Source: a virus
IMG/VR virus record: IMGVR_UViG_3300014497_000279
Location: 1 to 41,204 of that record
Strand: one strand, 5' to 3'
Length of the DNA: 41,204 bases
Shown here piece after piece: positions 4,019-37,788 of the stretch. The notes under the pieces were generated by a model that searched no databases, was not told the DNA's origin, and saw only the letters and a program-made list of their open reading frames with translations. The translations under genes were made by a program, and so were the position numbers. Each line of letters begins with the position of its first letter. The stretch's first letter is position 1.

Positions 4019-4254
4019 GCTGCACCGCCTTCGAGAGTGGCAAGGGTGTCGCGTAGCTCGGCAATTCGCCGGCGATCCTTCGCGGCATCGCCTTGGTAGC
4101 CAGCAGCGACACGCGCGGACGCGGCCCGGTTCGGGTTCGATGGGTTGTTGGCTCGCTGTTCGAAGTAGCGGGCACGGCGAAGCGCACCGCGTTCCAGGCG
4201 TAGCCGCCACGCGAGGGAATCGCGCAGTTCTTGGATGGCGGGGGAGGCGCTCAT
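4015..4254 (-). CDS. Small helical protein, 79 residues
   Basis: The protein is Arg/Ala-rich and almost entirely helical, with likely coiled-coil segments at both ends (AIQELRDSLAWRLRLERGAL and RRIAELRDTLATLEGG). It is joined to both neighbours by ATGA overlaps in the leftward operon. Function unknown; small helical early proteins may bind nucleic acid or a host partner. Confidence 0.55.
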   Translation of the reverse strand: MSASPAIQELRDSLAWRLRLERGALRRARYFEQRANNPSNPNRAASARVAAGYQGDAAKDRRRIAELRDTLATLEGGAA

Positions 4255-4502
4255 GCCGCCACCCCGACCCGGTCGGCGTTGCCGCGGGCGATCTCGATGC
4301 CACCGGCGGGGACCATGCCGTGGCGCGCGCGAGCGGTGCGACTCAGCGCCATGGCGGCGTGTGCCAGGTCTTTGCAGAGCTGGGTGGCCTCTTCAGGGGA
4401 GAGGCTGACGATGACGCCACCGGCTTTGATGACGATGGTGGCGGTGCTGGTGCGGGCTTCCACGACTGGGTGGGCGCGCGCGCTGACGATGAAGCAGGCC
4501 AT
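4251..4502 (-). CDS. First gene of the leftward early operon, 83 residues
   Basis: MACFIVSARAHPVVEARTST starts after a GGAG ribosome binding site about 45 bases downstream of the predicted transcription start of the pL-like promoter. A beta-rich N-terminal half is followed by a helix (PEEATQLCKDLAHAAMALS). Because it is the first leftward gene it sits where N or other early regulators are found in lambda, but it has no arginine-rich N-type motif. Function unknown. Confidence 0.6.
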   Translation of the reverse strand: MACFIVSARAHPVVEARTSTATIVIKAGGVIVSLSPEEATQLCKDLAHAAMALSRTARARHGMVPAGGIEIARGNADRVGVAA

Positions 4503-4553
4503 GGAAGTCTCCGTTCCCCGGCCCGGATGGGCTGTTACTGGGGCGACGGAAGT

Positions 4554-4582
4554 AGAATCACAAAACGTGATCCTTAAGTCAA
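4554..4582 (-). promoter_or_regulatory. Predicted early leftward promoter (pL-like)
   Basis: On the minus strand TTGACT (4577-4582) is separated by 17 bases from GATTCT (4554-4559). Operator 4557-4571 lies over the spacer and -10 region and operator 4581-4595 touches the -35, so a bound repressor would block polymerase. The arrangement matches the pR-like promoter: 11 bases from the start of the -35 to the start of the inner operator in both. Confidence 0.65.
4557..4571. promoter_or_regulatory. Operator OL-a, 15-bp palindrome
   Basis: ATCAC-AAAAC-GTGAT, a perfect inverted repeat with a 5-base centre. It fits the consensus A(A/T)CAC-N5-GTG(A/T)T shared by five sites in the window and overlaps the spacer and -10 of the leftward promoter. 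Probable binding site for the XRE repressor and/or the YdaS/Cro-like protein. Confidence 0.75.
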
Positions 4583-4595
4583 CACGATACGTGAT
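4581..4595. promoter_or_regulatory. Operator OL-b, 15-bp near-palindrome
   Basis: AACAC-GATAC-GTGAT, one mismatch between arms. It starts exactly 24 bases after OL-a, the same spacing as between the two inner right operators, and overlaps the -35 of the leftward promoter. Confidence 0.7.
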
Positions 4596-4655
4596 GTTGC
4601 TTCGCGCGTTTTATGAACTGGACGAATTCCGTTCAGGAAATTGCCCAGATTCTGC

Positions 4656-5003
4656 TTATCGCTGGTCGAAGGAGTTGCGGAGGATTCCCGCTTCCTCGAA
4701 GGACACGTCGTCCCGGATGCACTCGCGGGCTCGATCCAGATCGCGGTGGAGGGCAATCAATTCGTCATCGGTCAGGTCGTCGATGCCGGCTTTACCCAGC
4801 GTGGCTTGGTCGACAAGCAGCTGCATGCCGAACTGCCTATAGGTTCGCGCCAGCGACCGAATCATCCGGATGTGGCTCTCACGGACCACTGAATCAAAGC
4901 CGGGCGTTGCCAGCTCCGATACAGACTTAAGTGGAAGACGCGCCTTAGGCGCTGCGTTGATTCGCTCTACCAACTTGTGTAGCAGCGCTTCCGTTTTGCT
5001 CAT
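4656..5003 (-). CDS. Immunity-region protein of unknown function, 115 residues
   Basis: The gene is downstream of the repressor on the same strand and overlaps its end by 59 bases, with its own AAAGGAATAG ribosome binding site. The product, MSKTEALLHKLVERIN, is charged and mostly helical, with an acidic segment LTDDELIALHRDLDRARECI near residues 75-95. It occupies the position of lambda rexA but shows no similarity to Rex that I can see. It would be made from the repressor transcript in the lysogen, so exclusion, repressor modulation or induction control are reasonable guesses. Confidence 0.65.
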   Translation of the reverse strand: MSKTEALLHKLVERINAAPKARLPLKSVSELATPGFDSVVRESHIRMIRSLARTYRQFGMQLLVDQATLGKAGIDDLTDDELIALHRDLDRARECIRDDVSFEEAGILRNSFDQR

Positions 5004-5442
5004 CTATTCCTTTGCCCCTTTCCTGATCACGCTTATCGCGCCACTTCGCAAAATCCACCAGGTTCCGTTGATCGGCCGGGCGGTCGTCCGCCGCAATCCA
5101 CTCGTACACGTCTGCGAACAGGTCGGCCTCGGTTTCAAATTCGACGGCCTTGCCCAACGTTGCGAACGCATCGACTAAGAAGCGGTACGTGCTGGCGAGG
5201 ATGGCAGGATCGGGTCGCGCGGATTGAGACACCTGCGCTTCACCGAAGAGCGAGGCGACTGATACGCCCAACGCCTTGGCCAGGAGCGGAACCTCGGACA
5301 CCTTGGGTTCGCGCGCGCTGGGTGCCGACGACTCGTAATTCGCGATGCGGCTTTGGCCCGACCAGCCACAGGCAAGTGCCAGGGCTTCTTGGGTCATCCC
5401 ACTACGGAGACGGGCGGCGCGGAGGTTGTCAGAAAAGGCCAT
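4945..5442 (-). CDS. XRE-family phage repressor (CI-like), no peptidase domain
   Basis: The start is the ATG at 5442, about 10 bases from operator OR-c and a few bases from the predicted pRM start point, implying little or no leader. Residues about 5-70 form an XRE helix-turn-helix (MTQEALALACGWSGQSRIAN) resembling the lambda/434 repressor domain. The C-terminal half (about 75-165) is helical and acidic, then basic at the end. It lacks the Ser-Lys S24/LexA autoprotease motifs. At 165 residues it is shorter than CI (about 237). It is therefore probably the lysogeny repressor, relieved by a route other than RecA-stimulated self-cleavage. Confidence 0.8.
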   Translation of the reverse strand: MAFSDNLRAARLRSGMTQEALALACGWSGQSRIANYESSAPSAREPKVSEVPLLAKALGVSVASLFGEAQVSQSARPDPAILASTYRFLVDAFATLGKAVEFETEADLFADVYEWIAADDRPADQRNLVDFAKWRDKRDQERGKGIDEQNGSAATQVGRANQRSA

Positions 5443-5448
5443 GCCGTA

Positions 5449-5477
5449 ATTCTTCACGGTCTGTGATGTTGCGCCAA
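5449..5477 (-). promoter_or_regulatory. Predicted repressor promoter (pRM-like)
   Basis: On the minus strand TTGGCG (5472-5477) is followed after 17 bases by AAGAAT (5449-5454). A start point 6-7 bases downstream would coincide with the repressor ATG at 5442, so the message may be leaderless as for lambda cI from pRM. Operator 5453-5467 overlaps the -10, consistent with autorepression at high repressor level. Confidence 0.5.
5453..5467. promoter_or_regulatory. Operator OR-c, 15-bp near-palindrome
   Basis: TTCAC-GGTCT-GTGAT, the most diverged of the five operators. It is closest to the repressor gene and starts 23 bases from the middle site. Its position matches lambda OR3. Confidence 0.6.
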
Positions 5478-5490
5478 CACAAAACGTGTT
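5476..5490. promoter_or_regulatory. Operator OR-b, 15-bp palindrome
   Basis: AACAC-AAAAC-GTGTT, perfect arms. It is the middle of three evenly spaced right operators, overlapping the end of the pRM -35 and the first bases of the pR -35. Confidence 0.75.
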
Positions 5491-5517
5491 GCACACAGGA
5501 TCACGATATGTGATGCT
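5489..5517 (+). promoter_or_regulatory. Predicted early rightward promoter (pR-like)
   Basis: TTGCAC (5489-5494), 17 bases, GATGCT (5512-5517). The match to consensus is modest, but the geometry relative to its operators is identical to the leftward promoter. The predicted start falls at about 5524, so the YdaS/Cro-like gene starting at 5525 may be leaderless, in agreement with the lack of a Shine-Dalgarno sequence. Confidence 0.5.
5500..5514. promoter_or_regulatory. Operator OR-a, 15-bp palindrome
   Basis: ATCAC-GATAT-GTGAT, perfect arms. It starts 24 bases after OR-b, lies over the pR spacer and -10, and ends 10 bases before the Cro-like start codon. Confidence 0.75.
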
Positions 5518-5524
5518 ACTGAGC

Positions 5525-5986
5525 ATGGACGCACTCGACAAAGCTGTGAAAGCCGCCGGCGGGGTCACTTCCCTCGCCATTTCCTTGGGCGTAGGACAGA
5601 ACACAGTGAGCAACTGGCGCAAGCGCCGGCGTGTGCCGCCAGGCCACGTGATCAAGATTGAGGCGATCACCGGCGTTTCCCGGCACGAACTGTGTCCGGC
5701 CGTGTTCGGCCCGGCGACCGACGGCACCATCTCGCCGGGCGCATCGATCGCACAGGCGCAGATCACCAAGCGCGCGCTGCGGGAGAAGTTGGGGCTGCGC
5801 AATGACGGACACCTGGCCAAGGTGCTGAAGCTTCCCGTTGGCCAGGTCCAGGCCTGGCCGGAAGAGCAGGGCGTCCCAGCCCTTCCGCAGGTTGTGCAAC
5901 TGCTCGGCATTCAGCCGCAACCAGAAGCCGCTACCGCGCCAGAAGACACGGATATCCATCGAATCGTTTCTGTTGACGCGGCCTGA
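5525..5986 (+). CDS. YdaS/Cro-type transcriptional regulator
   Basis: Residues 1-60 (MDALDKAVKAAGGVTSLAIS ... GVSRHELCPAVFG) match the YdaS-like HTH family of prophage Cro analogues, including the typical helix, the VPPGHVIKIE segment and the GVSRHEL ending. The remaining 90 residues add a second helical region. It is divergent from the repressor across three operators, so it is the likely lytic switch protein. The start at 5525 is preferred over 5486 and 5513 because the upstream bases are operator DNA. No ribosome binding site is visible, consistent with a leaderless message. Confidence 0.8.
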   Translation: MDALDKAVKAAGGVTSLAISLGVGQNTVSNWRKRRRVPPGHVIKIEAITGVSRHELCPAVFGPATDGTISPGASIAQAQITKRALREKLGLRNDGHLAKVLKLPVGQVQAWPEEQGVPALPQVVQLLGIQPQPEAATAPEDTDIHRIVSVDAA

Positions 5987-6044: not shown

Positions 6045-6230
6045 ATGTACGCAGACCCTTCGAACATTCGTGATAACCCGATCAAGGTCCGGTTCAACGA
6101 CTCCGAAAAAGCTGTGATTGAGGCATTGGCGAACTTCAACGGCCGCCAGCCGGCTGTCTTTGTGCGCGACCTGGTGCTGGCTGGCCTCGCGTCGTTGGAA
6201 CAGCGTAGCTCTGATGCAGACGCCGCCTGA
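6045..6230 (+). CDS. Ribbon-helix-helix-like small protein
   Basis: This 61-residue protein has a short beta strand (NPIKVRF) followed by two helices (DSEKAVIEALANF and PAVFVRDLVLAGLASLEQR), the layout of CopG/Arc ribbon-helix-helix DNA-binding proteins. It is the second gene of the rightward early unit. Early RHH proteins commonly act as transcription regulators. The fold assignment is by pattern only. Confidence 0.65.
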   Translation: MYADPSNIRDNPIKVRFNDSEKAVIEALANFNGRQPAVFVRDLVLAGLASLEQRSSDADAA

Positions 6231-6456: not shown

Positions 6457-6771
6457 ATGAGCAGCCGTCTCGCGCGCTCGACCGATATCAGCACCAGCCA
6501 CGAGGCCGCCGCGCACGTGGTATCCACCGGCCTGCAGACCGCCCAGCAGGACCGCGCCGCCGACGCCGTAAAGGCACATCCGGGCATGACAAGCATGGAG
6601 CTGGCAAAGGCAACCGGCCTTGACCGGCACATGCTCGGACGGCGTCTGCCTGAGCTGCTGGAGCGTTGCCGTGTGTGGCGTGGTCCGAAGAAGACATGCG
6701 AGATCAGCCGCGTCAGCGCGTGCACTTGGTGGCCGGTGGCCCCGGGCGAGAACCTGGCACTGGGGCTCTGA
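6457..6771 (+). CDS. Putative winged-helix DNA-binding protein, 104 residues
   Basis: A GAGGT ribosome binding site precedes MSSRLARSTDISTSHEAA. Residues about 35-75 (DAVKAHPGMTSMELAKATGL then DRHMLGRRLPELLERCRV) look like a winged helix-turn-helix. The C-terminal part has a Trp pair and two cysteines. It lies directly before the replication initiator. It may regulate the early genes or assist replication; this is inferred from position. Confidence 0.6.
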   Translation: MSSRLARSTDISTSHEAAAHVVSTGLQTAQQDRAADAVKAHPGMTSMELAKATGLDRHMLGRRLPELLERCRVWRGPKKTCEISRVSACTWWPVAPGENLALGL

Positions 6772-37526: not shown

Positions 37527-37788
37527 TTTGTTCCCTGATGATCCCTAGACCCTGATGGAGGGCCGCTTGATACATCGGCTCTGGCACGTCCCCCACAAGC
37601 TGGGTGGTGGAGAGCGCCTGGTCGGTGATGCGGTCCAGGGTGTGAAGGATGACGTTAGGTGATGGATGGGTGGCGATCAGCAATCGGAGGCCATATTCCA
37701 GCGCTTTCACGTGCCCCATAAGTGCCTGCATCTGGCTTTCAAGATGGTCGAGCCGATCGTCGGCGAGTGCTGCTGCTTTACGGTCCAT
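37498..37788 (-). CDS. Hypothetical helical protein, 96 residues
   Basis: An AAGGAG site precedes MDRKAAALADDRLDHLESQM. The protein is mostly helical with a coiled-coil-like first half. It overlaps the convergent gene by 29 bases. Function unknown; its position suggests a lysogenic accessory role. Confidence 0.6.
   Translation of the reverse strand: MDRKAAALADDRLDHLESQMQALMGHVKALEYGLRLLIATHPSPNVILHTLDRITDQALSTTQLVGDVPEPMYQAALHQGLGIIREQITEAVRRSR

Follow-up and report, generated by a model that had tools for sequence, protein, structure and literature searches.

A probable lambda-organised immunity region with five candidate repressor operators and a modular repressor body in a phage of the Stenotrophomonas group

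The window analysed here is an entire IMG/VR record of 41,204 bases. A tyrosine integrase gene lies at its left end, and an O-like replication gene lies farther right of a pair of divergent regulators. Comparison with INPHARED phages at the DNA and protein levels returned no close described relative; the nearest named host genome with a related module is that of Stenotrophomonas sp. VV52, in which the repressor is 87% identical. The genes, candidate operators (OL, OR) and predicted promoters are as follows.

4251 to 4502, minus strand: gene of 83 aa, the first that pL serves leftwards; preceded by a leader and by GGAG as ribosome site
4554 to 4582, minus strand: predicted pL; TTGACT (4582-4577), 17-nt spacer, GATTCT (4559-4554)
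4557 to 4571, minus strand: OL1, ATCACGTTTTGTGAT; inside the pL spacer and extending into the pL -10 box
4581 to 4595, minus strand: OL2, ATCACGTATCGTGTT; its TT is the start of the pL -35 box
4656 to 5003, minus strand: gp115 (phrog_27415), 115 aa; overlaps the 3' end of the repressor gene by 59 nt
4945 to 5442, minus strand: repressor, 165 aa; XRE helix-turn-helix (HTH) and a helical C-terminal domain (CTD) without S24 peptidase
5449 to 5477, minus strand: predicted PRM; TTGGCG (5477-5472), 17-nt spacer, AAGAAT (5454-5449), 6 nt ahead of the repressor ATG
5453 to 5467, plus strand: OR3, TTCACGGTCTGTGAT; its TTCAC arm overlaps the PRM -10 box
5476 to 5490, plus strand: OR2, AACACAAAACGTGTT; the -35 boxes of pR and PRM begin in its two arms
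5489 to 5517, plus strand: predicted pR; TTGCAC (5489-5494), 17-nt spacer, GATGCT (5512-5517), with the TG of an extended -10
5500 to 5514, plus strand: OR1, ATCACGATATGTGAT; inside the pR spacer and extending into the pR -10 box
5525 to 5986, plus strand: Cro-like repressor, 153 aa; YdaS-type N-half and a C-half

The Cro-like protein, encoded by the first gene of pR, carries a YdaS domain (PF15943; Pfam 3e-15, residues 4-63) and also matches phrog_25161. Its C-half (5747-5983) occurs in part of the family only and is a module of its own, which follows YdaS-like N-halves of different kinds (L157, L161). This half has a faint resemblance to a degenerate second HTH, and the signs of such a duplication (hhalign P 0.017, probability 2.7%; weak NCBIfam match over residues 83-121) are only suggestive. 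Rightwards of cro, small genes for an Arc-like (phrog_4113, 6045-6230) and a MarR-like protein (phrog_1123, 6457-6771) occupy the position of lambda's cII, and no CII match was found. On the other side, the pL leader (4500-4553) holds a GCCC-ATCC-GGGC inverted repeat ahead of the GGAG ribosome site.

All five sites that an earlier note on this DNA had placed at 4557, 4581, 5453, 5476 and 5500 are present, with start spacings of 24, 23 and 24 bases as it had given them and with the same 11 bases in both promoters between the start of the -35 box and that of the inner operator (pL, TTGACT 4582-4577 to OL1 at 4571; pR, TTGCAC 5489-5494 to OR1 at 5500). The A(A/T)CAC arms that it had described hold for nine of the ten arms, the remaining one, in OR3 (5453), being TTCAC; the exact form AWCAC-N5-GTGWT is thus found in four of the five sites (OL1, OL2, OR2 and OR1), and OR3 has one mismatch. 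These four exact matches compare with a mean of 0.08 in 300 dinucleotide shuffles of the window (maximum 2) and with 0.003 expected in the 2-kb region. The note had named many equally good matches elsewhere in the genome as a sign against its view; the rest of the record holds no further exact match. When two mismatches are allowed there is no enrichment in the window (27 found, 29 expected), and hence the signal sits in the exact form of the motif. The sole one-mismatch match outside the region lies at 37649-37663 (ATGACGTTAGGTGAT) and is probably due to chance. LexA-type boxes showed no enrichment in the window.

The operators overlap predicted pR, pL and PRM such that conserved hexamers fall within the sites. 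A strict sigma-70 scan found no promoter because the -10 boxes (GATNCT) lie under its threshold, and both this outcome and the weakness of these boxes count against the reading proposed here. The pL pattern TTGnnn/GATnnT is kept in relatives, the pR pattern in 33 loci that carry the array, and AAGAAT of PRM in 30 of these 33. The arm pairs are ATCAC/ATCAC in OR1 and OL1, AACAC/AACAC in OR2, ATCAC/TTCAC in OR3 and ATCAC/AACAC in OL2, a pattern of arm by site that is fixed among loci. The fixed differences between sites are explained by arms that double as promoter boxes: the TTG of the -35 boxes comes from AACAC arms, GAT in the -10 boxes of pR and pL from ATCAC arms, and AAGAAT of PRM from the TTCAC arm. 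In all 33 array loci, the PRM -10 box lies 6 nt from the repressor ATG and the pR -10 box 5-7 nt from the cro ATG. With the AAGGAGG core as reference, no ribosome site precedes cro in 32 of the 33, and the match ahead of cI is at most three bases. Given an ATG 5-7 nt past the -10 box and no convincing ribosome site, the mRNAs of cI and cro are probably both leaderless, starting at the AUG.

The arrangement is strongly conserved. In 27 of 27 viral loci picked solely by similarity of the repressor protein (46-99% local identity), three sites stand at -72, -48 and -25 from the repressor ATG, OR1 at -72 and OR3 at -25 in every one. A downstream OL pair, 24-25 bp apart and at 812-2177 bp, accompanies them in 26; the contig of the lone locus without it breaks off in the repressor gene. 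OL1 was found in 29 of 29 array loci having an OL region, at a distance from OL2 of 24 bp (21 loci) or 25 bp (8 loci). When 2.9 million viral contigs were scanned for the pattern of the OR array, 31 stretches emerged, all of the window's family; OR half-site counts in loci selected in this way hold partly by construction, and it is the protein-selected set that constitutes the unbiased evidence. A three-site variant pattern modelled on phage mEp213 had no match in the viral contigs. In all likelihood, the five repeats are where the repressor of this phage's lysis-or-dormancy switch binds.

As in lambda, divergent repressor and Cro genes enclose three operators, and the leftward early promoter has an operator set of its own. 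The OR centre spacings of 23 and 24 and the OL1-OL2 distance of 24 bp equal those of lambda; the OR centres lie 18, 41 and 65 bp from the repressor start (19, 42 and 66 bp from that of lambda cI), both phages use ATCAC and AACAC arms with N5, with identical OR2 arms (AACAC...GTGTT), and the PRM -10 box is six nt ahead of the cI AUG in both. In contrast to the window, lambda has an OL3 and a repressor with an S24 peptidase; this LexA-like self-cleaving domain is present in a relative, L031. Furthermore, the OR1 centre is 35 bp from the cro ATG in lambda and 18 bp here, where cro probably has no leader, Cro is of the YdaS type and gp115 stands in place of rexAB. The proposal in the earlier note of a lambda-like switch with matching pL and pR geometry is therefore upheld by the lambda-equal spacings, the promoters inside the sites and the conservation in the protein-selected loci, yet its picture of five lambda-like operators needs qualification: the three OR sites are as in lambda, whereas lambda's third OL site is absent.

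Other described switches come close as well. The immB regions of N15 and phiKO2 (CB and Cro) have three OR and two OL operators, a prophage repressor without self-cleavage residues and an intergenic region of 80-81 bp (PMC4488713, PMC4997575). The window shares the three-plus-two layout and a repressor of the non-cleavable kind, and its type has an intergenic region of 80-82 bp, whereas the N15/phiKO2 operators are T-A-N10-T-A, a motif that the window lacks, their OL lies ahead of repA and their Cro is another one. In PY54, the cI and cro mRNAs are both leaderless by RACE (PMC4488713); the leaderless starts of the window are predicted ones, and PY54 has one recognisable operator only (OR3). 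The PaaR2/YdaS/YdaT system of CP-933P combines a short non-lambda repressor, YdaS as Cro, a leaderless repressor mRNA and multiple operators, but with GTTTAGTAA half-sites as operator and, in the parts of its description drawn on here, with no gp115 reported (PMC8630535). Finally, mEp213 and its relatives have a CGWASQSRIGNYES helix and CAC-N5-GTG sites, three upstream and three downstream, but their repressor is annotated as LexA-family, their Cro has a QSR helix and their sites are farther from the repressor ATG. The switch would work like lambda's, and by membership it is closest to N15/phiKO2, with an operator motif that is not shared. The five-operator DNA layout is thus of an already known kind, and what differs is the body formed by the CTD and gp115.

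The repressor matches Pfam HTH_3 (1.2e-9) with no second domain and no S24 match. Its CTD, modelled as helices, has no convincing family in Pfam or PHROG; the repressor model matched solved proteins (P22 c2, 434 repressor, ImmR and Stl) over the HTH only, none below E 0.001, and a PDB sequence search gave no match. Nor did Foldseek return a significant match for the gp115 model. The two are, however, close companions: gp115 adjoins the CTD in 78 of 80 gp115-selected viral loci and in 29 of 30 Stenotrophomonas loci, and in 80 loci selected by the repressor HTH it occurs in 23, all of which have the CTD, whereas the 55 that lack the CTD also lack gp115. HTHs from at least nine clusters are linked to the CTD, and the CTD-gp115 repressor body is found in 26 of the 91 Stenotrophomonas genomes searched. 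Could gp115 be a passenger, as the lambda rex genes are, with induction by ordinary RecA-dependent loss of the repressor? We regard this reading as evenly poised. The 59-nt overlap means that linkage alone could hold the two genes together and explain part of their association, and neither structure nor family searches gave a match pointing to a function. Against it, the repressor has no S24 domain, and gp115 is replaced where the C-terminal domain is S24 (L031/L141), yet it is kept with the CTD across all these HTH clusters.

We hypothesize that gp115 acts on the repressor and has a role in induction. A repressor without a self-cutting domain, together with a small partner gene, is a hint that dormancy of this phage may be ended by another route than in lambda. 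More tentatively still, and with some doubt on our part, the CTD and gp115 might constitute an input module of lambda-type switches that works without S24 and is of a kind not described before. Such a module would be in use in many prophages of Stenotrophomonas and its relatives and would accept any of the HTH clusters, part of which bring five-operator sets of their own, so that new immunity specificities arise while induction is unchanged.

Which protein reads the sites can be approached through the recognition helices. Distant phages, E. coli phage mEp213 among them, have CAC-N5-GTG sites along with QSR(I/V)xNYE-type repressor helices. In many distant lambdoid phages (L033-L047, L054-L088), repressor and Cro both have a QSR...NYE helix, with CAC-N5-GTG sites between the genes, an apparent recognition code shared by the two proteins. 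Leaving out L089, the genome hits (24 in all) carry other XRE helices in 23 cases, all without a CAC-N5-GTG site upstream; phages of the L048 type, in which a QSR helix is present and 250 bp hold no such site, count against the link. Natural domain swaps are also informative. In L157-L159, where the CTD, gp115 and the Cro C-half are retained, both regulators carry other HTHs and there are no CAC-N5-GTG sites; L161 retains the Cro C-half only. Conversely, L031 has the window's HTH and operators joined to an S24 CTD. Hence, the operators follow the HTH rather than the CTD. Indeed, a blind dyad search upstream of each HTH class recovered ATCAC-N5-GTGAT for the window's class, and ATAGC-N3-GCTAT and TAGGC-N2-GCCTA, the latter with TAGGY-N2-GCCTA as its operator set, for two other classes on the window's CTD; it gave nothing for two further classes. 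The ATAGC-N3-GCTAT class has three upstream sites in 10 of the 10 loci shown and two downstream in 9, the spacings being 25 and 35 and the two OL sites standing 25 apart, and the TAGGY-N2-GCCTA class has three upstream sites at 24-25 bp in four of five loci and at least two downstream sites in three. HTH classes with their own operator sets were seen in L189-L241 (the FISQF class) and in L186, L194 and L225.

It would be conceivable that the YdaS-like Cro is the main reader of the sites and that those of the XRE repressor are located elsewhere. In CP-933P, the DNA between ydaS and the repressor gene is bound by YdaS (PMC8630535), and because the Cro N-half also changed in L157-L161, where it was lost together with the operators, repressor and Cro cannot be told apart by the swaps alone. 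Yet in the distant phages with CAC-N5-GTG sites it is the repressor that carries the QSR helix, the recognition helix of the window's Cro (GQNTVSNW) is unlike it, and all five sites track the repressor HTH through three CTD situations; we thus consider this alternative very improbable. Sites of a host regulator, or chance, can practically be dismissed: a Stenotrophomonas genome of 4.4 Mb that carries a related prophage has eight exact matches, of which four lie outside the prophage array (the other four are the array; a reversed control pattern gave one), but the window has its four exact matches against 0.08, the geometry is fixed in 27 loci and, among 297 family genomes, the prophage carrier alone has the array. 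We therefore conclude that the HTH of the repressor most likely reads the sites, and the operator-repressor link, which the earlier note had drawn from position alone, gains support from both recognition helix and swaps. Cro, whose helix differs, need not share all five sites.

The sites, their spacing and conservation, their overlap with predicted promoters and their association with the HTH are features of the sequence itself, and from them a mechanism can be proposed. The repressor would bind the five operators as a dimer; at OR1 and OR2 it would shut pR, and with it cro and the replication genes, and at OL1 and OL2 it would shut pL. The centre of OR2 lies 41 bp before the predicted start of PRM, as it does in lambda, a position suited to stimulating PRM, and occupation of OR3, over the PRM -10 box, would turn the repressor gene off. 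Cooperativity, looping and a preference of Cro for OR3 may be expected. As a point against this mechanism, of the two acids in the activation patch of lambda CI only one finds a match in the aligned repressor (E19); L23 stands in the place of the other, D38.

In summary, the stretch 4554-5517 very probably lies in the immunity region of a temperate phage that belongs to the Stenotrophomonas group and is organised like lambda, and whose repressor would bind five operators. The switch itself would not surprise a specialist, although the modular repressor body might. The operators keep the lambda geometry to the base in unrelated hosts, with arms dictated by overlapping promoter boxes, and one repressor body with a linked partner gene apparently takes DNA-reading heads of different kinds, each with operators to match. 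Should the repressor be under the control of gp115, induction in this group would depart from the RecA-cleavage model, and prophages that share operators, such as those of the window's type and the S24 type of L031, would be mutually immune while responding to different signals.
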